From the NCBI RefSeq assembly GCF_003703835.1, contig NZ_RDQR01000006.1, positions 1 to 64,000 of the forward strand: DNA of 64,000 nt, in the 5' to 3' direction. The notes under the pieces were generated by a model. The model was not told the origin of the DNA, made no database searches, and saw only the letters and a list, made by a program, of their open reading frames with translations. The position numbers and the translations under genes are program-made. This stretch comes from Auritidibacter ignavus (lineage in GTDB: Bacteria; Actinomycetota; Actinomycetes; Actinomycetales; Micrococcaceae). This document shows, piece after piece, positions 2,753 to 16,755 of the stretch; within the stretch, counting starts at the first letter, position 1, and the number at the start of each line of letters is the position of its first letter.

Positions 2753-3685
2753 TCAGAAGGCTTGTTGCTCGGTGCGCTTGAGTGCACGGTAGCGGCTTGG
2801 GCTCATGCCCATGATCTGGCGGAAGAGACGTGCCGCATGTCCTCGACTCGCCCATCCAACTTGTCGGAGTATGCTGTGGATCGCATCATCTGTATCTCGG
2901 AACAAGCGAGCCATCTTTTCGACACGCAACATCGTCGGCCACGCGTGCGGGGTCTTGCCGAACGCCGCCACAAATACTTGGCTGAATCGCGAAGCCGACA
3001 GGGGTGTGGCTGACGCGAGTTCTGCACAGGTCCACGAGTGCGCAAGATTCTGCCTCATCAGGTCCGCGGCTTGTAGTGCTTCTGCTCGAACTGCAGAGAA
3101 TTTTCTATGCCGTGGTCGGGTCGGCAACGTGCTTGCGCGCTACCCGGGCGAGATCCGCACTGGAGTAACTTGCACGAACAGCACGACGACATCAAGGATC
3201 GAGAACCACAGTACTTGCATTCGGTGAGCGTGGAGACTAAGTCCGTGTGGGTCCAGACTCAGTTTCACAATTTCATCTACCCAGGGCATCAGTAGCCCAA
3301 CCCGCCCCTCGCCGAGGTGGCGAACCTGAGCGGGATCGGCGTAGATGATATCCGCGAAATCTTGCGTATCTAATCGGTCTCGAATGACGTTGACGTACTG
3401 CCAGTAAAGCTGGTGGGGTGCATAGTCTGGGTCAATATAGACGGTGCTCGTTAGGATTTGTGGCTCAGGGTCGGATCCGCAAAAGACCCCTGCTCCCAGC
3501 AAGACAACATCACCGGCATTAACAGCCCGCCGATTGGAGTTCACGGTGAGGAAAGCTGATCCATCACAGATAACGATAAGTTTGGTGCAATCATATGCTG
3601 TCGGACCTATCGGCCTATGGAGGGTTTTCGTTCTCGCAAGTATTGGCGCGAACTCGAAGTCGGGAAGGGGTGTGTGAATGTTCAA
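2753..3685 (-). pseudogene. AraC-family transcriptional regulator interrupted by an in-frame TAG
   Basis: The segment 3685-3143 encodes a cupin-like effector domain of AraC regulators (DCTKLIVICDGSAFLTV, AGDVVLLGAG). The segment 3127-2753 encodes the C-terminal double helix-turn-helix (SASRFSQVFVAAFGKTPHAW, then RLFRQIMGMSPSRYRALKR). Both lie in the same frame, separated only by a TAG at 3140-3142, after ISPG. A single C-to-T change (CAG to TAG) would explain it. The whole would be about 310 residues, the usual length. Either the gene is dead or two separate domains are made, the second from TTG at 3127. No neighbouring target is obvious. Confidence 0.75.
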
Positions 3686-4035: not shown

Positions 4036-4923
4036 TCACTTTTGAACGCGGGGGAATCGCTGTTTAAAGTCTGTCGCGACGTCCTTCATGAACATAAACT
4101 CGACACCGTCGTGCTCTGACATATGCTCGATGAACCGCTCGAGCATCAATAGATTCTGTGGGCGACCGCTTACATCGGGATGGATCGTCATCGGAAAGAC
4201 TGCGTAGTCCATTTCGCGATAGACCCAGTCGAACTGGTCCCTCCACAGCGACTCGAGCGCTCGGGGAGTTACGTATCCGTGGCTGTTCGCGCTTCCTTTG
4301 ACGAACATCATTGGCGGCTGGTCATCGAGATACCAGCTTGCTGGAATCTCGATGAGGTCTGTCTCTGTCCCGCGTTCCAGAGGCTTCATCCACTCCTTGG
4401 CCGAAGCCGCATCGAAGTTGATCGGTGTCCACTCGTCGCCGGCGCGCACATAGTAAGGAGTGTGATCGTCGTGCATGAGTGAGTGGTCGTACAGGAATCC
4501 ACGCTCGTGCAGGATTTCGTTAGTGACTCTCGAGAACTCCCACCACGGGGCTACGTATCCCACCGGTCGCCCACCCATGCGCGACTCAAACAACTCCAGG
4601 CAGTAGTCGACCACCTCCGTTTCTTGCTCCCTCGTCATCGACAGTGGATTCTCATGGCTGTACCCGTGCATACCTACTTCGTGTCCAGCCGCAAGCGTCC
4701 TCTCAAACTGCTCAGGGAACGTCTCAATCGAATGCCCCGGCCAGAACCATGTCACTGGAATCTCGCGGTTCTGTGCCAGCTTGAGCAGCCGAGGAACCCC
4801 GACTTCACCCGCGAACATTCCACGCGAGATATCGCTAGGTGAGTCCTGCCCACCATACGAGCCAAGCCACCCGGCGACGGCGTCAACGTCAATACCGATA
4901 GACACCATGATCTTCTTAGACAC
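4036..4923 (-). CDS. polysaccharide deacetylase / cyclic imide hydrolase family enzyme (295 aa)
   Basis: NodB-homology metal-dependent hydrolase of the PuuE/HpPgdA subgroup, which includes peptidoglycan deacetylase-like proteins and cyclic imide hydrolases of similar length (~293-297 aa). Visible motifs are the IDVDA metal-site Asp near residue 13, [22 protein letters not shown] (metal His residues near 87 and 91), YVAPWWEFS and a late [11 protein letters not shown]. There is no signal peptide, so a cytoplasmic amide or imide substrate is as likely as cell-wall glycan. GTG at 4923 is preceded by AGGAGG. It is the last gene of the operon starting near 8.0 kb, 60 bp after the MFS gene, which suggests processing of, or resistance to, the cluster product. 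Confidence 0.75.
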
Positions 4924-4983
4924 TTTGAGTTCCTCCTTGAATGATCTTGATTGCTCGTTCGGAAAGGTGATGTTAAAAGTGAC

Positions 4984-6066
4984 CTAGCCTTGAGAGAAGG
5001 CCCATCCAGCAGCGAGTGCACCGATACCTAAGCCAGCGTCGAAGGCGATGTTCCATCCTGCACTGGCCATCTCCGTATTTCTGGACGTGCGGGCGCGTCG
5101 CATCATGGCGGTCAGCGCTGCCGTCTGACCTACCCCAGACGTAAATCCGATGACTGCAACGGCTAGGAGTATGCCCAGACGAGAGAGAACGACAGAGAAG
5201 ACCATCGTTGATAAGGCAAGGATTCCGGCTGCTGTCACAAGGATGGCAAGCGGCGGATATCGATCAGATAGGCGGCCTCCCACCAGGCGACCCAGCGCCA
5301 AGCACACTTGGACCATCAACGCAGCCAGAACCGGTAGCCACGTACCCTCTGTGTCGCCGACTGAGGACAGAACGGCGGCGTAGAGACTCACGGCGAAAAG
5401 GTGACCCACCAGGCTGGTGATGACAATAGTGGCGGTAGAAAAAGTCCGCGAGCGTTTCAGAGAATCAGGCGCGGCGAGCTCCACCGACGGGCTGCCCAGC
5501 TGTAGATTAGAACGGTTGTCGGTGGGCGATTTCGCCTGCCCTGCCGGGACCAATGCGCTCAGCGCGAAGGCACTCCCGACGAGCGCTACGGCCAATTGCC
5601 CTCCTAGCTCGGCAGCATAGAGGCCTATCGGGGCTCCGAGCGCTCCGCCCACCGCTGAGCCAAAGCCATAGGTGCCGAGGGCGCGGCCGGTTTGGTCAGA
5701 TGCTGCCTGCTCTTTGACCCAAACGGTACTCATCACCACGAAGACGCCGAAGCCAAGGCCGAGAAGTAGTGATCCTGGCCACTGGTTCATCAAGGGGAGG
5801 ATCGCACTGCCCAAGCCCATAGCCGCCAGTGCCAGCATGACGGCAACGCGGCGATTCCTGACCCATCTCCGCCCAATGATAAGAAGCGGCTGGACGGCAA
5901 CGACGACGAGCATCACTATGCCTACTCGTGCTCCAGATGAGATGCCTGACTCGTTTAGAGCGCTTGATGCTGTGGTGTAGAAGGTATAGAACGCGGCGAA
6001 ACCACCACAGCCCGCAACCGCTATTCGACCTACGATGCCGTAGGAGCTGGGCCGCGCTGAGGTCAC
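4984..6066 (-). CDS. MFS transporter (360 aa)
   Basis: Major-facilitator permease with about eleven strongly hydrophobic segments. The first half contains the loop GRRWVRNRRVAV and the second half the sequence GGRLSDRYPP, which resembles the conserved MFS loop GxLxDRxGxR. It starts with GTG at 6066, overlapping the stop of the SMR gene (GTGA). At 360 residues it is somewhat shorter than the usual 390-420, ending abruptly after GWAFSQG, so the last helix may be missing. Substrate unknown. Its place behind the SMR pair in the putative tailoring/export operon suggests efflux of the product or an analogue. Confidence 0.8.
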   Translation of the reverse strand: MTSARPSSYGIVGRIAVAGCGGFAAFYTFYTTASSALNESGISSGARVGIVMLVVVAVQPLLIIGRRWVRNRRVAVMLALAAMGLGSAILPLMNQWPGSLLLGLGFGVFVVMSTVWVKEQAASDQTGRALGTYGFGSAVGGALGAPIGLYAAELGGQLAVALVGSAFALSALVPAGQAKSPTDNRSNLQLGSPSVELAAPDSLKRSRTFSTATIVITSLVGHLFAVSLYAAVLSSVGDTEGTWLPVLAALMVQVCLALGRLVGGRLSDRYPPLAILVTAAGILALSTMVFSVVLSRLGILLAVAVIGFTSGVGQTAALTAMMRRARTSRNTEMASAGWNIAFDAGLGIGALAAGWAFSQG

Positions 6067-6494
6067 TTGTGCAGTTCCGTAGCCGCTCTGGAGGTACTGT
6101 CTGACTTCGCCGAGAGCTTTGGACTGTCAGCGAGCTTGAGCCAAATGACACCGCCGATAATGACTGCGAGCCAGAACCCCTTGATTAGGGTGAGTGTCTC
6201 GTCGAAGAAGACTGGCCCCAGCAGGGCGGCGCCGACCGCGCCGATGCCGGCCCAGACAGCGTAGCCGATGCCGACATCGATTCTCTTCAGGGCTACGCTG
6301 AGGAAGAATAGAGTGAACAGGAAGAACACGATGGCCACGAGGGACCATGTGGGGTTTGTGAAACCATTGCTTCCGTTCACGCTCAGGGCGTATCCAACCT
6401 CGAATCCTCCGGCGAGGAGGAGGGCGAGCCAGGCGCCAGCCTTCTTCTCAATGTCTGTCGGAGTGGTGGTCTCATGATTGGCAGTGGTAGCCAT
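6063..6494 (-). CDS. SMR-family transporter subunit 2 (143 aa)
   Basis: Small multidrug resistance protein with four predicted helices after a ~20-residue polar N-terminus. Typical SMR features are AGGFEVGYAL (with the essential Glu of the first helix), FFLSVALKRIDVGIGYAVWA and GAVGAALLGPVFFDETLTL. An upstream ATG would add 25 residues, but AGAAAGG-type spacing (GAAAGG, 8 nt) supports ATG at 6494. It lies 40 bp after another SMR gene. Paired SMR genes usually form heterodimeric or antiparallel EmrE/SugE-like pumps in the cell membrane. The long N- and C-terminal tails are longer than in EmrE. Confidence 0.85.
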   Translation of the reverse strand: MATTANHETTTPTDIEKKAGAWLALLLAGGFEVGYALSVNGSNGFTNPTWSLVAIVFFLFTLFFLSVALKRIDVGIGYAVWAGIGAVGAALLGPVFFDETLTLIKGFWLAVIIGGVIWLKLADSPKLSAKSDSTSRAATELHK

Positions 6495-6534
6495 GAGAAT
6501 GATCCTTTCTGAAGGTGATAGTGCAGGCGTGGGA

Positions 6535-6855
6535 TTAAGCGGCGCCAGCAAGGTTGAGGCCGACAACACCGGCTATGACGGCGCCAATGCCCAGGAGCTT
6601 TTTCCAGGTTAGTTTCTGGGAGAGGAAGAGCGCGCCGAGGACGACGATGCCGACTCCTGCCAAGGAGGTCCACAGTGCGTAGCCGACGCCGACGTCGAAG
6701 GTCCGCAGGGCCAGGCTGAGGAAGAAGGTGGCTATGCCTCCGCTGACGAGGGTGGCGATACTCCACCAAAGCTTGGTGAAGCCCTGCGCCTTTCCGGCGG
6801 AGATGCCAACGGCGACTTCGAAGATGACGGCTATTCCGAGGTAGAGCCAGCTCAT
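6535..6855 (-). CDS. SMR-family transporter subunit 1 (106 aa)
   Basis: Complete four-helix SMR protein of standard length. The first helix contains IAVIFEVAVGISAGKAQGF with the membrane-embedded Glu, followed by ALRTFDVGVGYALWTSLAGV and LFLSQKLTWKK. It overlaps the stop of the upstream deaminase gene by 4 bp (ATGA), so translation is probably coupled, and it is followed by a second SMR gene. The pair probably exports a cationic or guanidine/amide-type small molecule across the membrane. The exact substrate cannot be read from sequence. Confidence 0.88.
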   Translation of the reverse strand: MSWLYLGIAVIFEVAVGISAGKAQGFTKLWWSIATLVSGGIATFFLSLALRTFDVGVGYALWTSLAGVGIVVLGALFLSQKLTWKKLLGIGAVIAGVVGLNLAGAA

Positions 6856-7382
6856 GATGGATGTCCTTTCAAAGGTGCATTCGAACGCTGGTCAGCGTCC
6901 ATTGTTGATCTGTGTGTGTGAAAGTAGCGAGCGAACGGTTCGTTGCCTCGTTCGGCCGGAAAGGAGTTGAAGACGGTGGACCGAAGCTCATCAGTAATGC
7001 CGAGCGAGAGGTAGCTGGTGCGGTAGTCGAAGCCCCATTCGGCGACGGCGTCGCGATCGACGGCGACGTATATGGCATCCACGCCTTGATCGATAGCGAA
7101 GCGATAACACAGTCCGCAGGGTTCGCCCGTGGCCACCAGCGTGGTGCCGGAGAGGTCGTCCCGGTCATCAGAGTTGAGCACTTCGCGCATAGCGACGATC
7201 TCGGCGTGGGCGGTCGGGTCACGGGTTTCCCTGACCCGGTTGACTCCAAAATCAGAGATGACGCCGCTGTTGTCGACGAGCACGCCAACGAAGGGCAGCC
7301 CTCCGGCCTCGACGTGCTCAACACCCACTACGACCGCCTCGTTCATGGCCTGAATGAGAACGTCCGGTGGGATGGTGCTCAT
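6852..7382 (-). CDS. zinc-dependent cytidine/guanine-deaminase-family protein (176 aa)
   Basis: Member of the CDA/tRNA-deaminase superfamily. The zinc site is visible as THAEIVAMRE (His59, catalytic Glu61) and GEPCGLCYRFA (Cys89, Cys92), and the length and layout resemble nucleoside- or guanine-deaminase-like proteins. It would hydrolyse an amino group from a heterocycle in the cytoplasm. It overlaps the FrnE-like gene upstream and the SMR gene downstream by 4 bp on each side, so it is part of a tightly coupled operon. Whether it acts on a nucleobase or on the cluster product is unknown. Confidence 0.85.
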   Translation of the reverse strand: MSTIPPDVLIQAMNEAVVVGVEHVEAGGLPFVGVLVDNSGVISDFGVNRVRETRDPTAHAEIVAMREVLNSDDRDDLSGTTLVATGEPCGLCYRFAIDQGVDAIYVAVDRDAVAEWGFDYRTSYLSLGITDELRSTVFNSFPAERGNEPFARYFHTHRSTMDADQRSNAPLKGHPS

Positions 7383-7999
7383 GATCGGGCCTCGGCGGCC
7401 GTCGCGCCCTCGGCCAGAGTGTCGACAGTCTTCTTTAGCCGCGCGCCGCTGGGTACCCCGCGCAGGAACTGGCCCTCGACCACGATGCCTGGCACAGAGG
7501 TGACGCCCACGGTGTTGACCGCATAGTTCTGATCGGCTTGCTGCCTGGCCCGTCGTTCCTCACTGTGCAGAGCCTGTTCGGCCTCCTCCCGATCGAGGCC
7601 GGCCGAGACTGCCACGTCAAGGATCACGGGATCCTTGCCGATGTCCCAGTCATCTTGGAAGAAGGCCTTGAACATCGCCTTGGAGTACTCCTCGGCTTTG
7701 CCCTGCTCCTGAGCCAGCTGCAGGACCATGAATGCCTTCTCCGTGCGCGGCTGGGGAGATACGGTCGGCAGGCTGATGGGAACATCAAGCCGTTCGGCCA
7801 TCGGGTAGACGGCGTCTCTCCAGATCCGTGGCAGGTAGTCGTCCTCCGGGCGCAGGGTGGGAACGGGATCCGGTCGCAGCTCGAACGGCCGGATGGTCAC
7901 TTCGACATCACGGTCCCGTTTGAGTTCCTCGATCGCTCCCTCAACGAGGAAGCAAAACGGGCAGACGTAATCGACGAAGACATCGATCTTCGTGGTCAT
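7379..7999 (-). CDS. DsbA/FrnE-like thioredoxin-fold protein (206 aa)
   Basis: Thioredoxin-fold protein of the FrnE/2-hydroxychromene-2-carboxylate isomerase group. A CPFC motif (Cys13, Cys16) sits just after the first strand (FVDYVCPFCFLVE), and a GVTSVPGIVV cis-Pro loop is present near the C-terminus. There is no signal peptide, so it acts in the cytoplasm as an oxidoreductase or isomerase. FrnE-type proteins occur in polyketide and other biosynthetic clusters. ATG at 7999 has GAAAGG 9 nt upstream; the earlier ATG at 8020 lacks a ribosome site. It is the first gene of the second operon and is preceded by the 19-bp motif at 8023-8041. Confidence 0.85.
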   Translation of the reverse strand: MTTKIDVFVDYVCPFCFLVEGAIEELKRDRDVEVTIRPFELRPDPVPTLRPEDDYLPRIWRDAVYPMAERLDVPISLPTVSPQPRTEKAFMVLQLAQEQGKAEEYSKAMFKAFFQDDWDIGKDPVILDVAVSAGLDREEAEQALHSEERRARQQADQNYAVNTVGVTSVPGIVVEGQFLRGVPSGARLKKTVDTLAEGATAAEARS

Positions 8000-8022
8000 A
8001 GTGCTGGTCCTTTCAATCATGT

Positions 8023-8041
8023 TACTGCATGTGCATGCATC
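8023..8041. promoter_or_regulatory. candidate operator of the MarR regulator, copy 1
   Basis: TACTGCATGTGCATGCATC, identical over 19 bp to 13349-13367. It contains the inverted repeat TGCATGTGCATGCA (imperfect). It lies between the divergent ends of the MarR gene and the FrnE-like gene, 24 bp upstream of the FrnE start. Confidence 0.6.
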
Positions 8042-8085
8042 TATATGGGTAAAAGGTGGCCCTTCTCGCTCGAGGGCGCCAAATG

Positions 8086-8571
8086 CTAAGATGTAAGCTT
8101 GCTGATCGCCTCGAAGGAGTGGTCAAGGCCGGCCAGATCTAGCTGTGGGTACTGCTTGGCTGCGTCGCAGAGCAGTTCGCTGATTTTCGCATCGTAGGGG
8201 TCGCGGATCTCCTCCACGGATTTGAGGCCTTTCTCAGTGATGACCGCGTAGACCCCGCGTCCATCGTCGGGGCAGGTGTCTCGGAACGCCAGCCCCTTGT
8301 CCTCCATTCGCCCAACGAGTCTGGTCACGGAGCTTGAGTTTAAGCTGACCTTCTGGGCGAGCTCGTGGATACGTAGCTCCCGCTCCGCGGTTCTGCTTAG
8401 GTGAAGGACTGCACGATACTCGGTGAGTCCGATTCCGTAGGTGTCAACGAGCCATTTACCCAGTGTGGCATCCACTGCGGCGACGATGGCCACAACCTGC
8501 GACCATGCCGCGCTGAGGTTGCGCGTCGGGGGGGTATGTGCTTGCTCAGAATGATCCGTGTACATGCACAT
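8086..8571 (-). CDS. MarR-family transcriptional regulator (161 aa)
   Basis: Winged-helix MarR protein. TEYRAVLHLSRTAERELRIH leads into the recognition helix LAQKVSLNSSSVTRLVGRME, and the wing contains DGRGVYAVITEKG. The longer open frame from 8670 is not needed: MarR homology begins a few residues after ATG 8571/8565. The start codons sit inside GTGTACATGCACATA, which resembles half of the 19-bp motif found at the two other promoters of the cluster, so it probably represses itself and both operons and releases on binding a small ligand. It lies 27 bp after the racemase-family gene. Confidence 0.85.
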   Translation of the reverse strand: MCMYTDHSEQAHTPPTRNLSAAWSQVVAIVAAVDATLGKWLVDTYGIGLTEYRAVLHLSRTAERELRIHELAQKVSLNSSSVTRLVGRMEDKGLAFRDTCPDDGRGVYAVITEKGLKSVEEIRDPYDAKISELLCDAAKQYPQLDLAGLDHSFEAISKLTS

Positions 8572-8573
8572 AA
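8559..8573. promoter_or_regulatory. partial operator-like motif at the MarR gene start
   Basis: GTGTACATGCACATA around the MarR start codon shares the alternating TGCATG/TGTACATG pattern of the 19-bp motif at 8023 and 13349. Binding here would give autoregulation. It is less similar than the other two copies. Confidence 0.35.
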
Positions 8574-8597
8574 CCCTACCATGTGCGTTCGCGCAGC

Positions 8598-9371
8598 TCA
8601 CCTCTCGGAGAAGAGGCGACCGTATCCTTCCACCTGGGATCTCAGGCCGCTTCCGTCGAGGCTGGCCCACAGCAAAACCTGGTTAGCGGTGAGCATCGTG
8701 ATGCCGAGCGTGGACTCGAGATGATCGATCGCCCCGATAGCTCGCTGTCCGTTGCCGGCGATGAACACGGCCTGAGCGCCGGTCGTCGCGACCAGTTCGT
8801 CCACTGCTGCGGCGGTGGCTGCCGGAGTGATGGTCAGCGGGCCTCCTGTAGGACCGCTGGGGGTTGCGGAGACGATGTCGATGCCGTGGTCTCGGAAGTA
8901 GGCCTCGCCGGCTCGGCAGAGCTCGTCGTCGAACCAGGAGGGCGCCATGATGGCGATCTTGTTCAGACCCAGCTTTCGGATCGCGGCAGTGGCCGCGGTG
9001 CCCGTGGTGTCGAGCTTGATGCCGTGACTGACCGTTGACAGGCGCATGAGCAGTTCTTGCTCGCGGTCTGCTCCGATCTTGAACGAGGAACTGGTGAAGG
9101 CCAGTCCGATGGCGTCCAAGGGCGAGCTGGAGAGGCTGTCGACCGTGCGGTCGATGATCTCTGGAGCAATGAACTGCATGACCGGGTCATGGGCGATCTT
9201 CTCGTCGATGGTCCCGCCTGGGTGCATCGGGCTGAAGTCGACGCGTGCTCCGTGGATGGTGCTTCGTGTGCCGGCGAGCATCGCCTGGGCTTCGGCCTCC
9301 GGGCCGATGTCGGCGTGAGGGGTGACGATCCCGAGTTTGAAGTCGGATTCCCAACCGTCGTATTTCCACAC
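8598..9371 (-). CDS. Asp/Glu racemase-superfamily protein (maleate isomerase/AMDase-like, 257 aa)
   Basis: Two-domain α/β protein of the maleate cis-trans isomerase/arylmalonate decarboxylase group. Evidence is the N-terminal LGIVTPHADIGPEAEAQAML, the loop AIGLAFTSSSFKIGAD, the GIKLDTTGTAATAAIRKLG segment and the ending AVFIAGNGQRAIGAIDHLES plus TANQVLLWASL. The two catalytic cysteines of classical members are absent: Phe-Thr-Ser replaces Cys-Thr-Ser in the first loop, and Gly-Asn replaces Cys-Thr in the second. GTG at 9371 has AAAGGAG upstream and starts 15 bp after the transglutaminase-like gene. Its reaction in the pathway is unknown. Confidence 0.8.
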   Translation of the reverse strand: MWKYDGWESDFKLGIVTPHADIGPEAEAQAMLAGTRSTIHGARVDFSPMHPGGTIDEKIAHDPVMQFIAPEIIDRTVDSLSSSPLDAIGLAFTSSSFKIGADREQELLMRLSTVSHGIKLDTTGTAATAAIRKLGLNKIAIMAPSWFDDELCRAGEAYFRDHGIDIVSATPSGPTGGPLTITPAATAAAVDELVATTGAQAVFIAGNGQRAIGAIDHLESTLGITMLTANQVLLWASLDGSGLRSQVEGYGRLFSER

Positions 9372-9385
9372 GTGTCTTCTCCTTT

Positions 9386-10051
9386 CTAGTTTGGCAGCGT
9401 CGTTGCGGCCAGGCTCAGTGAGGTTGGTGTGCGGCCGTGATCGGTGACCATCTTCGGGTGCTTGGTCGCGATGAGCGTGAGCAGTTCGTCCATGTTCGGA
9501 TCGACATAGTAGCGTTGCTCGCCGCGATAAATCATCCTGGTGCTGTCGCTGTTGCGCTGTTCGATGGCGTCGCCGCTGGGATTGAAGCGGAGGACATCGA
9601 TGCCGTAGAGCATGCACAGCAGCGTGTTGAAGATGGGCGCGGCCTTGATCCACCGACCATTGAGGTAGATCCGTGCGTACCAGTGCAGGAACTCCTCACC
9701 TCCGACGAGTTCGTGCATCGCCGCGTCGGCAACGTGGTTGGTGACCACGTCGGAGCACAGCACGGCGGGCACGCCGAGCTTGCGGCAGCCAGCGACGAAC
9801 AGGATGCTCTTGTGCAGGCAGAAGCCGAAAGGTTTATCGACAACGTCCGAGGCGCTAAGGTCCGTGTTCAGCATGACGTTGAAGACGTTGTAGTCGATGG
9901 TGTCGCGCACGGCGTCGTGGAGACGCTCGACGGAATTGGCGACGTTCGCCACGCTGTAACAGCCAGCGTCCTCAACGAACTGCGTAACGCTCGGGGCGTC
10001 ATAGTCGAACACGGCGGTCGCCTGGGTCAGCTGAGGTTCGCGAGCGATCAT
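9386..10051 (-). CDS. transglutaminase-like protein (221 aa)
   Basis: Papain-like transglutaminase core. FGFCLHKSILFVAGCRKLGV carries the candidate nucleophile Cys78, and LHWYARIYLNGRWIKAAP carries His123. The Asp usual after the tryptophan is replaced by Ala-Ala, though a 'WxKAxPxFN' form is common in this subfamily. Transglutaminase-like enzymes such as AdmF of andrimid biosynthesis make amide bonds with carrier-protein thioesters, so amide formation or product release is the attractive role here (inference). It overlaps the dehydrogenase gene by 4 bp (ATGA), so it is translationally coupled to it. Confidence 0.8.
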   Translation of the reverse strand: MIAREPQLTQATAVFDYDAPSVTQFVEDAGCYSVANVANSVERLHDAVRDTIDYNVFNVMLNTDLSASDVVDKPFGFCLHKSILFVAGCRKLGVPAVLCSDVVTNHVADAAMHELVGGEEFLHWYARIYLNGRWIKAAPIFNTLLCMLYGIDVLRFNPSGDAIEQRNSDSTRMIYRGEQRYYVDPNMDELLTLIATKHPKMVTDHGRTPTSLSLAATTLPN

Positions 10052-11178
10052 GAGTTCACTCCCAACATGGTGGCGATCTTCGTGCGCAGGAGGTCATTCG
10101 ATCCGGAGTAGATCGCTCCGGGTATGGCATCGAGGAGGTTGCTCGCCAACGGTGACGTAGTCAGGTATCCGTTGCCGCCATGGACGCGGATGGCGTTGAT
10201 CGCCGAGTCGACGTTGGCCTCGCTGATGAAGACCTTGGCCGCGGCGATCGGAACGGTCAAGTCCTCGAAGCCGTCCAGTCGTTCCGCGATGGATTCCAGC
10301 AGGGCTCCGCCCAGTTCGATGGCGATCTGAGTCTGGACGATCCGGTCTGCCACCAGCTGGTTGCTGCCAATGCTGCGCCCGAACTGTTCGCGGTCGTTGA
10401 CGTACTGCACTGAGCGGGAGACCAGCTGCTCCATCTCGCCGATGTTGCCGGCAAAGGCCAGCAGGATCTCGCGCTTCATGACCTGGTCGAGGATCAACAG
10501 GCCTGCGCCAGTGTGCCCGACGCGGTTGACAGCGGGCACTCTCACGTCCTCCAGCGCGACCTCCCCGATCGGGGAGGTGCTCAGCCCGGCCGTGGGCATC
10601 GGCTGGGAAGTGTCGACGCCGGGCCATCCAGTCTCGACGAGGAACGCCGAGAGCCCCTTGTCGACGCCGTCTTCGATGGTCTTAGCGTAGATCACCAAGG
10701 TCGAGGCAATCGGTGCGTTGGTGATGAACCTCTTTGTACCGTTCAGGACGTAGTAGTCCCCCTGGAGAATCGCTGTGCTGGTCGTGCTCATGACGTCTGA
10801 CCCGGCCTCGGCCTCGGTGATCGCGTGGCCGCCGATGGTGGTGCCGGATTCGGCTGCCGGCAGATAGCGATCCCGCAGCTGTCGCTCTGCGAATGCGCGC
10901 AGGCAGTAGATGGTACTGGCCAGTTGGGTCACTGCTGAGAAGGTCAGTCCTCGATCCGGGCTGGTGCGCCCGAGTTCACGGACTCGGTTGATGGCGGCGC
11001 TCATTCCTGTACTGCCGATGCCTTCGGTGGCGAGCGTTCTGAATAGCCCGCTCGTGGCAGCGGCATTCCACAGTTCCGTCGGGAATCCAGCTTTCTGTGA
11101 GGGTGGGGCCGTGGGCGCGTACTTGCGCAGGTGGTCGAGGAACCCCAACCACGGGTCGTCAGTCAGAATCGTGCTCAT
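10048..11178 (-). CDS. acyl-CoA dehydrogenase-like flavoprotein (376 aa)
   Basis: FAD-dependent dehydrogenase of full family length. Domain landmarks are GGHAITEAEAGSDVMSTTST (FAD/substrate loop), LNGTKRFITNA, ILDQVMKREILLAFAGNIG and a C-terminal VHGGNGYLT. The usual catalytic base motif YEGT near the end reads YSGS here (Ser358 in place of Glu), so either another residue is the base or the reaction differs from α,β-desaturation. With an adjacent carrier protein and adenylation enzyme, the likely substrate is a carrier-bound aminoacyl thioester, as for prolyl-carrier dehydrogenases. It lies 11 bp after the ectoine-synthase-like gene. Confidence 0.85.
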   Translation of the reverse strand: MSTILTDDPWLGFLDHLRKYAPTAPPSQKAGFPTELWNAAATSGLFRTLATEGIGSTGMSAAINRVRELGRTSPDRGLTFSAVTQLASTIYCLRAFAERQLRDRYLPAAESGTTIGGHAITEAEAGSDVMSTTSTAILQGDYYVLNGTKRFITNAPIASTLVIYAKTIEDGVDKGLSAFLVETGWPGVDTSQPMPTAGLSTSPIGEVALEDVRVPAVNRVGHTGAGLLILDQVMKREILLAFAGNIGEMEQLVSRSVQYVNDREQFGRSIGSNQLVADRIVQTQIAIELGGALLESIAERLDGFEDLTVPIAAAKVFISEANVDSAINAIRVHGGNGYLTTSPLASNLLDAIPGAIYSGSNDLLRTKIATMLGVNS

Positions 11179-11189
11179 CGTCTACTCCT

Positions 11190-11564
11190 CTAGTAGGTGC
11201 TGAAGTCTCTGGCGCTGAGCACGCGCTTCTCGTCTCCGCGGGTCGGCGGGTTGAAGACGCTGACGAGCTCGAGATCCTCGTGGTCCGATGCGCGCAGATA
11301 GTGGGGCTGGTTGTCATCCAGGACATAGACCATGCCGGCAGTGACTTCGAAGAAGTTCCCTTCGGTGTCTTCGACGTTGCCCGCGCCACGGATGCAGTAG
11401 CAGACTTCGAGGTTGTTGCGGTACTCCAACTTGGACTCGGTGCCCGACCGGAAGACGGTGTCGGCGACGGCGAAGCCCATGTTGTCCTTTTCGACCAGGA
11501 GGCGGTGGCTGGTGCCACTGCCCCACTCGACGGCGGAAACTTCGTTCCTGGGCTTGGTGAACAT
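11190..11564 (-). CDS. ectoine synthase (EctC)-like cupin (124 aa)
   Basis: Small cupin with strong resemblance to ectoine synthase. WGSGTSHRLLVEKDNMGFAV and FRSGTESKLEYRNNLEVCYC are followed by VYVLDDNQPHYLRA and VFNPPTRGDE, all in EctC order and spacing. The three metal ligands known in EctC (Glu, Tyr, His) correspond to Glu53, Tyr80 and His88. EctC closes the tetrahydropyrimidine ring of ectoine from N-acetyl-diaminobutyrate. No ectA or ectB is in the window, and the gene lies between a carrier protein and a dehydrogenase. A cyclisation or dehydration step on a related intermediate is the likely role. GTG/ATG choice is clear: ATG at 11564 after AGGGAG. Confidence 0.88.
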   Translation of the reverse strand: MFTKPRNEVSAVEWGSGTSHRLLVEKDNMGFAVADTVFRSGTESKLEYRNNLEVCYCIRGAGNVEDTEGNFFEVTAGMVYVLDDNQPHYLRASDHEDLELVSVFNPPTRGDEKRVLSARDFSTY

Positions 11565-11626
11565 GGTGGTACTCCCTCTTATTCAGGCGATTTCGGTGAT
11601 AATTGACGGTGATTGGATGGTAATGG

Positions 11627-11887
11627 TCAGCAAGCCATGACGTCAGTGCGATTGGCCTCGATGAAGCTGGCGATGCCCTCGGGCGTCTTCAGCTCGTCCG
11701 GATTGATTGAGATGGTGTTGATCGGAATCTTGTAGGTCCGAGCGCACCAGCCGAGCAACTGGACCGTGGTGACGCTGGTGAGGATTCCTGTCGTGAGTAG
11801 ATCGACATCAGGCGGCAACTGGTCTGCCGTGACGTCGGTAGCGAACGTTTCGACGATGTACTGCTTGACCCTGTGGAGGGTGGACAT
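11627..11887 (-). CDS. acyl/peptidyl carrier protein (86 aa)
   Basis: Stand-alone carrier protein of typical length and helix pattern. The attachment motif is VDLLTTGILTSVTTVQLLGW with Ser38 as the phosphopantetheine site. The Asp normally before this Ser is Thr37, which is uncommon. It begins 3 bp after the adenylation gene stop and would carry the activated amino acid as a thioester. The divergent Sfp-type transferase at 13327-13941 would install its prosthetic group. The stretch to the next gene is 62 bp. Confidence 0.88.
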   Translation of the reverse strand: MSTLHRVKQYIVETFATDVTADQLPPDVDLLTTGILTSVTTVQLLGWCARTYKIPINTISINPDELKTPEGIASFIEANRTDVMAC

Positions 11888-11890
11888 GAG

Positions 11891-13252
11891 TTACTCACTC
11901 CCTACTCGTGATTTGATGGTGGGAAGATCCGGTTTGCCGTTACCGTTCAACGGCAGGGGCCCGGTGAAGGCATGCAGGTTGTTCGGCATCGCGAAGGCGG
12001 GCAGATGAGCGCTTATTGCCATGCGCAACTGGAGTCCGGTTGCGGCAGAGCCGTGATCGGGCGCGGTGTAGGCAAGATGCAGTTCTTCTGCGGAGTCAGA
12101 GACCTCGAGCCACGCGCAGGCAATGCCGACCAGAGCCGTCCGACGCGCAGCCTGCTCGATTTCTTCGAGGTTCACTCGCTGGCCGCGGACTTTGACAAGA
12201 CGATCACGTCGGCCGTTATACATCAGCTGCCCATTTGACCACCTTGCCTGGTCCTTCATCGGGTACAAAGCCTCACCGGCCACGGGTAAGGGCGTGACGG
12301 TTCCCTCGGTGATATAGCCTTGCGCCATCCACGGCGTATGCACGAGTAGTTCCCCGTGGGCCTCCTCGGCGCTCTTTCGGAGAGGTACGTGGATTCCATT
12401 GGAGTTGAGCAAAACCTCGCAGCCGGCGATAGGCGTGCCAAGCGGCAGGGTCTCACTTTCAGAGAACTGTTCGGCTGAGAGCGTCTCGATGAGGCAATCG
12501 TTGACCTCGGTGGCTCCATAGACGTTATGGAAAGTTGCAGTTGGGAAAAGTCGCGCTGCGGCCGCGCGCAGCGATTGTGCAACGACGCCGCCAGTGAGAA
12601 CCACGTCCCGAACCGAGGGGTACACCGCGTCTCCAACGGCGTTGAGCAGCGCATCCAGAGTGGAGGGAACGACCTGGATGAATGTTGGCCGGTGCTGTTC
12701 GAGCAGTCGGACCAGGTAGGGAGCCTGGTGGAGGCGGGCTGCCTCAGCCGCGACCACAGTACCGCCGGCGGCCAGAACCGCCCAGGTGTCCAGTAGGGAC
12801 ACGTCGAAGTTCCAGGGGCTCAGACTCAGGGACACGGTTGTGTCGTTGAAGCCAAAGTAGTCGCCGCCCCAGTGCAGGAACTGAGTGAGGCCTGTGGCGG
12901 GCAGGGCGACGAGCTTGGGGAACCCCGTTGACCCGGAGGTGGGCAGTGCGAGGACTCCGCCTTCCAAAGAGTCTGTCGAAGCTGAGCGTGTTCTGGCGAA
13001 GTGTTCGATCTGCTCGACGATCGTCGCCAGGTAGTCGTCTGATGCCGAAGTGGGAACCAGTGCTACTACGCCTCCGCGATTGAGGATCGCGACGCACTCA
13101 TCGATGAGGCTGCGGTTCTTGGCTGCGCGGTAGATGCCGTATCCGTAACCGGCGACATCATCGCTGCGCTTGTCCTCGCCTTCGACAATGGTCCCGGGCT
13201 CCAGGTTTAGGCCCGCCGTCGGGGTGGGGGCTGTCGTAGCCATCATGCTCAC
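11891..13252 (-). CDS. stand-alone amino-acid adenylation enzyme (NRPS A-domain type, 453 aa)
   Basis: ANL-superfamily AMP-forming enzyme. Core motifs are LPTSGSTGFPKLV (A3), SPWNFDVSLLDTWAVL (A4, with the Asp that binds the α-amino group), VYGATEVND (A5), RRDRLVKVRGQRVNLEEIE (A8) and PLNGNGKPD (A10 Lys). A hand alignment to GrsA gives pocket residues D-V-L-Q-L-G-V-D-C: the first six resemble glycine codes, while the acidic residue at position 330 could instead favour a basic side chain. It would load the adjacent carrier protein. GTG 13252 (AAGGG 6 nt upstream) is preferred over ATG 13246. It is the first gene of the main operon. Confidence 0.88.
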   Translation of the reverse strand: MSMMATTAPTPTAGLNLEPGTIVEGEDKRSDDVAGYGYGIYRAAKNRSLIDECVAILNRGGVVALVPTSASDDYLATIVEQIEHFARTRSASTDSLEGGVLALPTSGSTGFPKLVALPATGLTQFLHWGGDYFGFNDTTVSLSLSPWNFDVSLLDTWAVLAAGGTVVAAEAARLHQAPYLVRLLEQHRPTFIQVVPSTLDALLNAVGDAVYPSVRDVVLTGGVVAQSLRAAAARLFPTATFHNVYGATEVNDCLIETLSAEQFSESETLPLGTPIAGCEVLLNSNGIHVPLRKSAEEAHGELLVHTPWMAQGYITEGTVTPLPVAGEALYPMKDQARWSNGQLMYNGRRDRLVKVRGQRVNLEEIEQAARRTALVGIACAWLEVSDSAEELHLAYTAPDHGSAATGLQLRMAISAHLPAFAMPNNLHAFTGPLPLNGNGKPDLPTIKSRVGSE

Positions 13253-13325
13253 GCTGGTCCCTTCTCTTCTTTGTACTCCGAGTGAGAGCCGGAGCGGACT
13301 CTGGCGATCACTCGCTATTTGCTTC

Positions 13326-13367
13326 GATGTACATACATCAATGTAAACTACTGCATGTGCATGCATC
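13326..13367. promoter_or_regulatory. divergent control region with 19-bp operator copy 2
   Basis: TACTGCATGTGCATGCATC at 13349-13367 is identical to 8023-8041. Next to it, GATGTACATACATCAATGTA at 13326-13345 is a second element of the same TGTACAT type. It lies about 75-115 bp upstream of the adenylation gene and at the start of the transferase gene, so one regulator could control both directions. Confidence 0.55.
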
Positions 13368-13941
13368 AAGACATTACGATAGAGGTGTCATAATCTGTCA
13401 CAATTCCCCTTCGCCCATTAGCCTGTGGACGACTCCCACGAGGGGCAACGAGGACGTTGCCGCGCTTCTGGTCGAGCGGGCGCTTGGAGCGGGTGCTAGG
13501 AGGTATTTCCGCTGTTCAGAGCGCAGCTTTCCCCTCGCTCACAGTGGCAAGTACTTCTCGGTCTCCCACTCCTTGTCGCTCACCGCGGTAGTTGTCGCCG
13601 ATGTGCCGATCGGAGTCGACGTCGAAGAGCGACTCACCTCGCAAGCGTGCGTCGATCTTGCTTGGGCGTGGTCTCCTGGCGAGCGCGCGGAGCTACAGTG
13701 TCAGGCTGACGTGGAGCATATCTCCACCGAGATCTGGACTGCGAAGGAAGCCGCGGGGAAGGCGCTGGGCATGGGCTTGCAAGCGTTGCCGTGCGCTATT
13801 GAGACATCTCCTGTGGTCGAGGCGACCGCGCACCGGACCATCGTGATGCCCTGCGGGCGCGGAACGAGTACCTACTTGGATTCTCATGGTGTGTGGCACG
13901 GTAAGAGCCATCTCCGCATATCCTGGAGGCACGCGCTCTAG
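13327..13941 (+). CDS. Sfp-type 4'-phosphopantetheinyl transferase (about 204 aa)
   Basis: Motifs of the Sfp/Gsp group are in order: GKYFSVSHSLSLTAVVVADV, PIGVDVEE (Mg-binding Asp and Glu) and IWTAKEAAGKALGMG. It would transfer the phosphopantetheine arm of coenzyme A to Ser38 of the carrier protein at 11627-11887. The start is uncertain: homology begins near residue PISLWTT at about 13420, the earliest ATG is 13282, and ATG 13327 lies within the operator-like region. No good ribosome site is visible for any of them. It is transcribed away from the adenylation gene. Confidence 0.85.
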   Translation: MYIHQCKLLHVHASRHYDRGVIICHNSPSPISLWTTPTRGNEDVAALLVERALGAGARRYFRCSERSFPLAHSGKYFSVSHSLSLTAVVVADVPIGVDVEERLTSQACVDLAWAWSPGERAELQCQADVEHISTEIWTAKEAAGKALGMGLQALPCAIETSPVVEATAHRTIVMPCGRGTSTYLDSHGVWHGKSHLRISWRHAL

Positions 13942-14215
13942 CTCCCTGAGGGAGCCTGTCCCGCATCCGGCGCCTCATGCGCCGCTGCCGATTCCTCTCC
14001 GAGAACTGTGGACTCCGCGCGTTAGTCCGCCTACAAGCTCAGCTGTCGCAGCTGGTCAATCAGTTGTTTCTGTGCAGTGTAGCCCTCGTTAGCTACTGCA
14101 CATTGATCACGATCAGATCCACCCACACAGTTGGCACCGTAGTGCAAACCGGCGTGCCGCGCGCACCTGCCCGCTGAGGCGACCCTCCAGAGGCCAGCCT
14201 CGGAAGGGAGCCGCC
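13942..14215. other. intergenic, junction of the cluster with mobile-element debris
   Basis: No supported gene. The sequence separates the transferase gene from the relaxase remnant and probably contains the boundary between the biosynthetic cluster and the decayed conjugative element. An imperfect GAGGGAGCC/GGCGCC-rich stretch follows the transferase stop, but no clear terminator is seen. Confidence 0.4.
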
Positions 14216-15765
14216 GTGGTGATGACGATCCGCGTCATGTCGGCCGGCCGCAGATACGAGTATCTCCTGTCCTCCGTCGCTGCAGGCGACGGCGACCGCG
14301 ACGTGGGCACCCCGCTAACCCGCTACTACACCGAATCCGAGTGCCCGCGCGGCACCTGGATCGGCTCAAGGCTGGCAAGCCTCGAAGACGACCACGGCAC
14401 CGGACTTGCCGACGGCGAGGCCGTCACCGAGGACCAGCTCGCACGGCTTCTCGGTGACGGCCTGCATCGAATCACCGGCACACGGCTCGGCCACCCATTC
14501 CCGAAACTGCAACCCCGCGCGAGCGCATCGCCGCCCGCATTGCGCAGCTCGACCCGGACCGGTCGCCAGCGCAACGGGATGCAGCCATCGAGGAAAGCCG
14601 TAGCGAAGAGATTGCGAAGAAGCCGCGCAACGCCGTTGTAGGGTTCGACCTCACGTTCTCCCCGCCGAAGTCGCTGAGCGCTCTCTGAGGTGTCGCTGAC
14701 GCGGGCACGCAAGCCCTCATCTCACAGGCGCATCACGCAGCCATGCGCGACACCATCGCGATTCTTGGAGAACGGGTCACCTCAACCCGCGTCGGCCGAG
14801 GCGAGATCGTGAGGATGCCGATCAGCGGAGTGATTGCCACTGCGTTCGATCATTACGACTCCCGCGCCGCCTGCACAAGGCCACCGTGTCGCTGTCGACA
14901 AGCTACAACGCGTTCCTCACGGATCACACTGCCCGGCTGCTCGGTGTCTCCTGGTCCCCGGTCGACCGAGGCAAGGACCGCAACACGGGCTGGGAGATAG
15001 ACGGTGTGCCCACTGAACTGATCGCTGGGTTCTCCCGACGCACGACTGGAACCGACGGGGTCGAGGGCATCGAAGCAACGGAAGATCGGCTCATTGCCGA
15101 GTACATCGTCACCTACGGACGCGAACCTAGCCCGGCGACGATCGCCCGATTGCGGCAGCAGGCAACGCTGGAGACGCGGCCGGTCAAGGAACTGCACTCT
15201 CTGGCCGAGTTCACTACTCAGTGGCGCTGGCGCGCGACCGGATTGCTGGGCGAGGACGCGACGACGTGGGCGCAACATCTCCTCGCACACACCCCGGCTG
15301 AGGCGAGGCTGCGTGCCGACGATGTGCCCCCTGGAACAGGTGGCTGATATTGCGACGGTGGTGCTGATGGCGGTCGCCAACCGGCACCCGGTGTGGAACC
15401 GGTGGAACATCCACGCCGAGACGATACGGCAGCTCATGGGGGTGCGCTTCACCACGACCAACGACCGCATGGCCCTCCTTGATCAGATCATCGAACGGGC
15501 CGAAGCCGAATCACTCCGGCTGACCCTGGAGTTCGACCGTGCTCTCTCTGAGCATTTCATCGACGAGAACGGGCCCCGGTTCCAGTCCGTCGACCAGATC
15601 GCCACAGTCTCGAACCTTGCCCACTCAGATCGGGTACTCGATATGCTCGTCGGCCCAGCCGGGGCCGGCAAGACCACGGCGCTACCGGCACTGCACCGGG
15701 CCTGGACCGCCGGGCACGGACGCCACTCGGACATCGGCCTCGCCCCGTCAGCACCCGACGACTCC
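14216..15765 (+). pseudogene. MobF (TrwC/TraA-type) conjugative relaxase, frameshifted and truncated
   Basis: The N-terminus MSAGRRYEYLLSSVAAGDGD and TPLTRYYTESECPRGTWIGS is the start of actinobacterial MobF relaxases with the tyrosine pair. FDLTFSPPKSLSAL, FDHYDSRA, LSTSYNAFLTDHTARLLGVS and the Walker A GPAGAGKTTALPAL follow, but in changing frames, with an in-frame stop after SLSAL. At about 14870 the segment with the HxH metal site is deleted between SRA and LHKATVSLS. It ends in the helicase domain near 15765 where FAD-oxidase sequence begins. The gene cannot encode an active relaxase. Confidence 0.8.
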
Positions 15766-15770
15766 CGCTT

Positions 15771-16755
15771 GTGGATATCGACCCGGACGTACGGCTGGCT
15801 CGAGTCGGCGGTGGAACAACTTCGGAGGCGGTCGCGCGCGAGGCCACACGCCACGGCCTGACCCCACTCAACGGTAGCGCACCAACGGTGGATGTTGCCG
15901 GCTACAGCCTTGGAGGTGGCGTGGGACCACTCATCCGGCAGTATGAAATACGCAACCGACCGCGTCACCGGGTTCGGCATAGTCACCGCGTTGCAGCTCC
16001 AGCTCTTTCCCGTCGACCAAATACTTGCCGGCGCACTGAGCTTCGCCCCCTGAGCGATTCCCTGAGATCGTCAGCCGTAACCTGGAGTGGACCACCGGCG
16101 TGCCCAACCAACTCCCCTCCTCATTGTCGCTCAAGACCTTCCCCGACCTTCTGACTCTGCCGGAACGCGTCCGATGCAAGCGGACCCTGCGCCTCTTCGT
16201 CATCTGCACCGACCCCCCGGACATGTATCTCCGCGATTGACGCACTGCGGACCGGTCGAGGACAACATCTACCTGATATCCTACGCCGACTGCAGCAAGG
16301 TATTCGCCGAACCGGCAAACTCGCGCGGCTATGAAGGTGATGACGTGACTACCGTGGCACTGGACCCCACCGCGACCGTCATGGCACGCATCGATGCGGA
16401 GACCGGGAACTACATGCTCCTTCAGGTTCATTACCTCCGCTGTGTCGCCACGCGGAAGCCAGAGCGTGACAACGCGATCGGCCACCCTCATGCGACTTAC
16501 GTCGTCCGGATAATCACGCCGATCGCCCGGCAGGTACGCTACGACCTCGCGAACGAATAGTCCGCCCTGGTCGAAGACCTCGCGCACGGGGCGACCAGTC
16601 GAGCACTGTATTTTTGTTCGGAGACAATGCCACCGAGCTGAGCACAAGTGCCTGCTACGAACCCGAGACCTATCAGCGCCTTGTCGACATCAAGCACCAC
16701 TACGACCCAGCTAACCTCATCCGACTCGGGCGCGCCATACCTGTCAATGCGCGCT
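15771..16755 (+). pseudogene. FAD-linked oxidase (berberine-bridge type) remnant
   Basis: The start DIDPDVRLARVGGGTTSEAV, REATRHGLTPLNGS and GYSLGGGVG is the FAD-binding PP-loop region of BBE-like oxidases. Near 16350-16560 YMLLQVHYL and ARQVRYDLANE, and at about 16625-16755 ELSTSACYEPETYQRL and VDIKHHYDPANLIRL, give the C-terminal BBE domain. These pieces lie in different frames with stops between them. The N-terminal residues are also lost at the junction with the relaxase. It is non-functional. Confidence 0.7.

Follow-up and report, generated by a model that had tools for sequence, protein, structure and literature searches.

The stretch of DNA analysed here (hereafter the window: the first 64,000 nucleotides of contig NZ_RDQR01000006.1 of Auritidibacter ignavus) carries at positions 4036-13941 a 14-gene cluster, which probably represents a sugar-free branch within a widespread family of pathways to aminopyrroles, with first five steps that would be those of showdomycin biosynthesis. 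A preliminary description of the window had recognised no described pathway with such a set of genes. This cannot be upheld, because the five-gene core of the cluster, which codes for an adenylation enzyme (A), a carrier protein, an EctC-like cupin, an acyl-CoA-dehydrogenase-like flavoprotein (ACAD) and a transglutaminase-like protein (TG), matches the showdomycin-type aminopyrrole core, and cores of the window's kind lie beside genes for the pseudouridine-phosphate glycosidase PsuG and a HAD phosphatase in 17 of the 83 loci compared, the arrangement reported for showdomycin.

According to its published account, showdomycin of Streptomyces showdoensis is made by a stand-alone A protein and a carrier: SdmE cyclises L-glutamine, SdmC activates, SdmD carries, and oxidation and hydrolysis to an aminopyrrole carboxylate follow, while the later steps involve the C-glycosynthase SdmA and the phosphatase SdmB, the final ones being non-enzymatic (PMC8724604). 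In the window, too, the A enzyme and the carrier are stand-alone and lack a condensation domain, as a showdomycin-type core requires. The window's cluster differs in having neither PsuG nor HAD, and in adding a deaminase, a DsbA-like protein, a pair of small multidrug resistance (SMR) genes and a MarR regulator. The core chemistry assigned to the cluster is putative, being read from sequence comparison.

Gene content and conservation

All 14 genes were located at 4036-13941, and each frame is open up to one terminal stop. Thirteen share the minus strand from 13252 down to 4036, in the order A, carrier, EctC-like, ACAD, TG, a maleate-isomerase-fold protein (RAC), MarR, DsbA-like, deaminase, SMR1, SMR2, a major facilitator superfamily (MFS) permease and a PuuE-like enzyme, with the gene for a 4'-phosphopantetheinyl transferase (PPTase) placed divergently at the head. 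Four pairs (ACAD/TG, DsbA/deaminase, deaminase/SMR1 and SMR2/MFS) overlap by 4 bp, and the remaining intergenic gaps in the run measure 3-65 bp.

11891..13252, minus strand: stand-alone amino-acid adenylation enzyme (SdmC-like role proposed: activates L-Gln or its cyclic amidine); PF00501, TIGR01733 below cut-off, motif strings
11627..11887, minus strand: carrier protein (SdmD-like role proposed); weak NCBIfam carrier matches, conserved attachment Ser
11190..11564, minus strand: EctC-like cupin, proposed glutamine(yl) cyclase; PF06339, PDB 5onn E 1.2e-24
10048..11178, minus strand: acyl-CoA-dehydrogenase-like flavoprotein, proposed aminopyrroline-S-carrier dehydrogenase; PigA E 8e-80 (below cut-off), PDB 4irn, 5zw0
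9386..10051, minus strand: transglutaminase-fold Cys/His protein, proposed release enzyme; PF01841, AlphaFold2 (AF2) model
8598..9371, minus strand: maleate-isomerase/arylmalonate decarboxylase (AMDase)-fold protein without catalytic cysteines (RAC); PF17645, EutA model, AF2 model
8086..8571, minus strand: MarR-family regulator; PF12802, PF01047
7379..8020, minus strand: DsbA/FrnE-like protein, CPFC motif; PF01323
6852..7382, minus strand: zinc deaminase related to guanine deaminase; PF00383, PDB 1tiy E 1.7e-11, HAE and EPCxxC motifs
6535..6855, minus strand: SMR exporter subunit 1; PF00893, Qac-type models below cut-off
6063..6494, minus strand: SMR exporter subunit 2 (probable start); SugE/Qac-type models below cut-off
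4984..6066, minus strand: MFS permease; PF07690
4036..4923, minus strand: PuuE/PgdA-like deacetylase-fold enzyme, possible cyclic imidase; PDB 3qbu E 6.6e-134
13315..13941, plus strand: 4'-phosphopantetheinyl transferase (start uncertain); PF01648 E 4e-8

For the A gene a GTG at 13252, which has a ribosome-binding-like stretch, is a more likely start than that of the longest open reading frame (ORF), and the same holds for a GTG at 9371 in the RAC gene; SMR2 likely starts with an ATG at about 6494, its listed ORF having begun from an ATC codon. Pfam profiles were applied to 12 of the 14 proteins (SMR2 and the PuuE-like protein left out) and NCBIfam profiles to 13 (MarR left out), and neither set matched a condensation, ketosynthase or thioesterase domain. 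The families matched were AMP-binding, Ectoine_synth, acyl-CoA dehydrogenase N/M/C, Transglut_core, Amdase/EutA, MarR, DSBA, dCMP_cyt_deam, SMR (twice), MFS, PuuE-like deacetylase and ACPS. The preliminary description is thereby borne out, together with PDB matches, in the gene families it named and the domains it found lacking, as it is in the compact 13-gene run with overlaps and a divergent PPTase gene; its picture of an intact cluster in decayed surroundings also held where these were inspected, with broken TrwC/AAA pieces at 14.9-15.9 kb and a Prim-Pol piece at 1.6-2.7 kb.

Relatives were collected in a genome scan with five TG proteins. It gave 189 relatives of the window's TG, the best 80 of which were kept; since these were chosen by similarity to that protein, the window's own type of cluster is over-represented in the counts below. 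The comparison comprised 85 rows, that is, 84 loci (L020-L023 and L025-L104) and the window, among which L020 equals L031 in the core, and the pairs L022/L048 and L037/L038 are nearly identical. The core is complete in 83 of the 85 rows, and two rows were removed before other counts: L101, a contig of 3.1 kb, and L103, in which A, carrier and EctC were not found. The genes for A, carrier, EctC, ACAD and TG follow each other in this order on one strand in 79 of the 83 rows (71 by ORF ends, 8 by tblastn positions), and order or strand is broken in L029, L073, L086 and L099. The earlier suggestion of a conserved block in other species is thus confirmed, and its opposite, genes lying separately in relatives without conserved order, is excluded by the conserved core order. 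Because the block recurs in distant bacteria, the cluster is not a chance arrangement. That the whole gene order might closely agree with a characterised cluster was also considered at that stage; this is so for the core and not for the remaining genes.

The window's architecture (type 1), in which RAC, the DsbA-like protein, the deaminase and both SMR genes accompany the core, with MarR in every one, occurs in 45 rows, type 2 (with PsuG and HAD) in 14, and a combination of both in three (L028, L030 and L053), so the type 1 set is complete in 48 of the 83 rows. In all 48 of 48 rows with the DsbA-like gene, RAC, deaminase, SMR and MarR genes are also present. Type 1 hosts belong to Actinomycetota and to the Alpha- and Gammaproteobacteria (Pseudomonadota). 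On a core tree from a quick search, with several long branches flagged, the type labels need 17 changes, as compared with a mean of 34.6 after shuffling. The nearest named relatives are two cluster copies in Brevibacterium sp. XM4083 (TG 90% and 86%), one of which (L026) is co-linear with the window in two pieces over 4048-13928. A tblastn search of plasmids with TG returned 93 records, and the four with inspected surroundings (from Vibrio, Burkholderia stagnalis, Streptomyces xanthii and S. globosus) carry the same neighbours. Among 296 genomes of the phylum, 16 (own genome included) yielded a TG match, mostly weak, and a TG homologue alone is non-diagnostic.

Three rows (type 3) have TrpD-, TrpF-, TrpC- and TrpA-like genes, identified in L021 by hidden Markov model and in L063 and L099 by similarity to L021 (L021:6736-14074, L063:4471-12029 and L099:3042-10631, the last from a Methylobacter metagenome-assembled genome); the set looks as if an aminopyrrole took the place of anthranilate in a tryptophan-like route. 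Another report mentions a trpF gene in the vicinity of the showdomycin cluster (PMC13055916), which may bear on these clusters. No type fits the other 18 rows, some of which look like type 1 clusters truncated where a contig ends. In all three untyped rows checked, a TrpB-like pyridoxal phosphate enzyme is encoded directly after the core, following TG (L094:10664-12034, Actinokineospora; L066:10682-12061, Streptacidiphilus; L086:10600-12024, Nonomuraea), and the Nonomuraea locus also has a ThiG homologue at 12107-12919.

Core enzymes and the proposed pathway

The A enzyme displays the motif strings TSGSTG, YGATE, GRRDRL and NGNGK. The carrier had no Pfam match and weak NCBIfam carrier matches, and its attachment Ser is invariant among 83 homologues. 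The EctC-like protein keeps the Fe-site Glu/Tyr/His in 83 of 83, likewise W21, S23, R25, T40 and Y52; it reached the Pfam cut-off of Ectoine_synth and just missed that of the ectoine-synthase NCBIfam (122.3 of 128 bits). It thus resembles ectoine synthase EctC in PF06339, in the metal triad and in most substrate residues, but its gene is not beside ectAB, and its position 38 is Cys in 37, Ala in 33 and Thr in 13 of the 83 rows, as opposed to His in 11 of 11 other EctC proteins (L109-L119, from the own genome and class relatives). True ectoine synthesis by the cluster was dropped, since the genome (2.59 Mb in 53 contigs) has a separate EctC on contig C5, adjoining an ORF which we take to be EctB-like. 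A second cassette-kind EctC-like gene stands alone in the same genome at L105:252-626 (G000:C32), is 56% identical and, like the first, has Ala at position 38; its neighbours are presumably RNase J and DapA. In Paenibacillus lautus EctC the iron ligands are Glu57, Tyr84 and His92, and Asn at position 38 contacts the substrate carboxylate, according to the structural report (PMC6344544). If the carboxylate were masked as a thioester, this contact would be expected to be lost, and the loss of the polar residue at position 38 agrees with such a substrate, short of proof.

The best family and PDB matches of the flavoprotein are the prolyl-carrier dehydrogenases (PigA, 268.7 of 500 bits; RedW, 246.7 of 650 bits; prolyl-ACP/PCP dehydrogenases 4irn and 5zw0), from which it differs in scoring below the equivalog cut-offs and in having an EctC-like gene always adjoining in the rows kept. 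It has Glu where 5zw0 has Glu and 6af6 has Ala, which we take to be the catalytic base. A prolyl-to-pyrrole-2-carboxyl pathway (of the PltF/PltL/PltE type), in which the EctC-like protein would come in later for tailoring, would account for this kinship to PigA and other prolyl-carrier dehydrogenases, and for the matches of the A domain to prolyl-carrier ligases, among many others. Yet proline offers no side-chain amide for EctC to close, the EctC-like gene is in all 83 cores, mostly between carrier and dehydrogenase, and the core is common to PsuG-bearing clusters, which makes this pathway very improbable.

TG has a predicted transglutaminase-like fold (AF2 predicted local distance difference test score, pLDDT, 89.7), in which Cys78, His80, His106 and His123 are kept in 85 of 85 rows. 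It shares a Cys/His fold with GdmF-type amide synthases and transglutaminase-fold acyltransferases (8ot2, Z 9.8, root mean square deviation, rmsd, 3.4 over 152 residues, at rank 34), but the canonical Asp position is Thr, Ala or Ser, and the putative cysteine protease 3isr scores higher (Z 13.8, the best fold match); comparison by sequence with the PDB set gave no match at E 0.1. ACAD and TG form one ORF of 623-631 codons in four rows (two identical Vibrio, Alteromonas and Grimontia), a natural fusion of which L020:10759-12651 is an example.

From these proteins we infer a pathway in which every reaction, the substrate and the product are deductions. The PPTase would prime the carrier, and the A enzyme would load L-glutamine or its cyclic amidine; the EctC-like metal cupin would close the side-chain amide onto the alpha-amine to give a pyrroline amidine, from which the prolyl-carrier-dehydrogenase-like flavoprotein would remove two hydrogens, leaving a carrier-bound 2-aminopyrrole-5-carboxyl group, and the Cys/His transglutaminase-fold protein would release 2-aminopyrrole-5-carboxylate. 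Ren (2021) is said to give the released showdomycin intermediate as 2-amino-1H-pyrrole-5-carboxylic acid, autoxidising towards maleimide. More speculatively, in place of C-ribosylation the guanine-deaminase-like enzyme may hydrolyse the exocyclic amidine nitrogen, and the cysteine-less RAC may act on the ring or its carboxylate; air oxidation and decarboxylation would then yield a maleimide- or pyrrolinone-type thiol-reactive compound, to be exported by the SMR pair and the MFS permease. Protection of the producer would fall to the DsbA-like protein, joined in this strain by the imidase-like enzyme, and MarR would repress the core operon and the dsbA operon via conserved palindromic sites until the product appears. 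The succession proposed in the preliminary description (carrier loading, EctC-like ring closure, flavin oxidation, transglutaminase-like release, tailoring and export) may stand in outline, and was incomplete as regards precedent.

Several observations weigh against this scheme. The review PMC8724604 puts cyclisation ahead of loading, so the carboxylate would be free in the EctC-like site. A side reaction of Halomonas elongata EctC, described in a 2018 review, speaks for the scheme in that it turns L-glutamine into the same cyclic amidine, 5-amino-3,4-dihydro-2H-pyrrole-2-carboxylate (ADPC), but the review also states that ADPC formation is very inefficient and reversible, with the equilibrium towards glutamine (PMC5924519). 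The likeness to the sdm genes was drawn from the published description of the pathway and from gene neighbourhoods, and the PigA, RedW and ectoine-synthase NCBIfam cut-offs were all missed. The roles of the deaminase, RAC and DsbA, as suggested here, follow family names, and RAC is without the catalytic residues of its family. The best solved relative of the imidase-like protein, 3qbu, is named a peptidoglycan deacetylase, and the imidase-like gene occurs in 4 of the 83 rows, two of these weak. As to the operator-like sites described below, the motif was taken from the window before being scanned, and L028 holds two further matches (2031 and 7973) at no obvious promoter. Finally, the specificity code of the A domain, read by alignment, is DVLTLGVDC in the window and DVLTLGVDC or DVLTLGIDC in seven rows altogether (the window and L025-L030), unlike the DLLLFGVDS-like codes of most relatives, and in six of these seven (the window, L025-L028 and L030) EctC position 55 is Asn for His. 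To our knowledge, the code of this clade matches no glutamine code.

Given these clade-specific changes, the substrate in the window's clade may differ from glutamine, which for this clade is a presumption. The same core logic would then act on another amino acid or amide and lead to a different ring, as the joint change in A code and EctC position 55 might indicate. We consider this rather unlikely, since apart from positions 38 and 55 the mapped EctC residues are all retained, and type 1 clusters with the common A code have the same genes downstream.

Branch genes, regulation and surroundings

RAC was named a racemase-family protein in the preliminary description, which is right for its predicted fold, that of maleate isomerase and AMDase (AF2 pLDDT 90.7; against maleate isomerase 4fq5, VIA Z 29.2, rmsd 2.0 over 231 residues), but not for its active site, in which Phe and Gly occupy both positions of the catalytic cysteines of the family. 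Among 74 RAC ORFs, Phe and Gly are found at both positions in all 53 close homologues (above 200 bits) and at each position in 20 of the 21 scoring below (the exceptions being one Trp and one gap), and the same cysteine-less family is also present in type 2 clusters. Maleate isomerase or racemase activity was therefore dropped. Both Cys of the CPFC motif of the DsbA-like protein are kept in 50 of 50 homologous ORFs. The MFS gene has a homologue at the equivalent place in L026 and L030, and a weaker one in L025.

The PuuE-like protein, encoded by a single-copy gene, is nearest to 3qbu among solved structures. Over 763 bp, its gene is 73% identical in DNA to one on a Rhizobium plasmid, where an amidase lies four genes away and a cyclase-family gene five. 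On R. leguminosarum pRL22b6 (L024:2908-8785) the close relative has genes for an amidase, a cyclase-family protein and transporters nearby, which could form a set for cyclic-imide catabolism. Among plasmid records there was no match to the whole cluster, and 14 Rhizobium records match the PuuE-like gene only. The Rhizobium setting would fit with cyclic imide breakdown by the PuuE-like enzyme, and a maleimide-opening imidase serving for self-protection of the producer is our guess.

Two operator-like sites, TTGATGCATGCACATGCA and TTGATGTATGTACATCGA, precede the A gene at a distance of 28 bp from each other, and dsbA is preceded by a third:

13324..13341, minus strand: operator-like site 1 ahead of the core operon; motif, aligned in L025-L030
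13352..13369, minus strand: operator-like site 2 ahead of the core operon; motif, aligned in L025-L030
8026..8043, minus strand: operator-like site ahead of dsbA; motif, equivalent site in L025-L030

They are the sole matches with at most one mismatch to the motif generalised from them in the 2.59-Mb genome, in which up to three mismatches gave 14 matches, vs two for the reversed control. The double site before A and the site before dsbA recur in seven of seven clade members (at most two mismatches), and the comparison set L031-L104 has 9 matches in 1.43 Mb. We infer that the MarR protein binds these candidate sites. In Brevibacterium iodinum (L030:615-659) a double operator-like site is also found upstream of the PsuG-HAD-MFS module, which would place that module under the same regulator.

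Beside the PPTase gene there is a relic of a mobile element:

14886..15861, plus strand: broken TrwC-type relaxase/helicase; PF08751 E 2e-12, PF13604 E 4e-10, in two frames

The Prim-Pol piece, a further relic of this kind, occupies 1565-2653 on the other flank, and the flank at 14115-15603 is common to L026 at 70-73%. Since relaxase pieces adjoin the PPTase gene and part of the flank is shared with L026, the block was probably carried by a conjugative element, of which broken remains are left. Positions 2753-3127 hold part of an AraC-type helix-turn-helix protein and 3140-3685 a possible sensor part (no Pfam match); the two may be pieces of a single regulator gene now in different frames. Beyond 23.8 kb, the ORFs presumably belong to the ordinary chromosome (nrdEF, gyrAB, recF, dnaN and dnaA).

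The putative sugar-free branch and its significance

Neither PsuG nor a homologue of the type 2 HAD protein was found in positions 1-24000 of the window. A hidden PsuG elsewhere in the genome was dropped, as a search of it for PF04227 gave no match (the same search was positive in 3 of 14 control genomes). Among the 12 genomes containing 13 type 1 loci, nine have a PF04227 protein and three (G362, G363 and G367) have none. With the own genome and these three lacking it, not every type 1 cluster can be a pathway to a PsuG-made C-nucleoside. The window's cluster could have derived from a showdomycin-type C-nucleoside cluster by loss of the PsuG/HAD/MFS module, and hence be a broken or partial nucleoside pathway: its close relatives L028 (Arthrobacter) and L030 (B. 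iodinum) have a PsuG-HAD-MFS-RAC2 module beside the same block, in L030 following the same double operator-like site, and a PF04227 protein is encoded somewhere in those nine genomes. We regard such a loss as improbable, as all genes of the window cluster are open, the four genomes without PF04227 speak against it, and 45 of the 83 rows are type 1 and show no PsuG in the stretch covered, including those of Vibrio, Alteromonas, Grimontia and Pseudovibrio.

Returning to the sugar-free aminopyrrole branch, we found no published description of type 1 in the literature searched, the coverage of which is limited; the core is of a known kind, and as far as our searches reach, the type 1 branch, the cysteine-less RAC and the product are not described. 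In a bolder version, which we put forward with somewhat less than even confidence, type 1 would be a separate undescribed pathway of marine Proteobacteria and soil Actinobacteria, making a sugar-free electrophile of the maleimide or pyrrolinone type from glutamine, with new cysteine-free catalysis in an Asp/Glu-racemase fold and an EctC-like enzyme cyclising a carrier-bound amino acid. The core would then be a general building-block module, used in other lineages for C-ribosylation (PsuG), for TrpB-like alanylation, or for a TrpD-TrpF-TrpC-TrpA-like route to a pyrrolo-fused indole mimic.

In the 2018 review (PMC5924519), solitary EctC-type proteins are listed as being of unresolved function. 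If the proposed pathway is true, these clusters give a direct answer for one group of them, namely cyclisation of glutamine on a carrier. From the block, a small electrophilic product is to be expected in Vibrio, Pseudovibrio, Streptomyces and Brevibacterium, and the showdomycin-like core emerges as an exchangeable module with at least four partner sets, providing a handle for genome mining of aminopyrrole-derived compounds.

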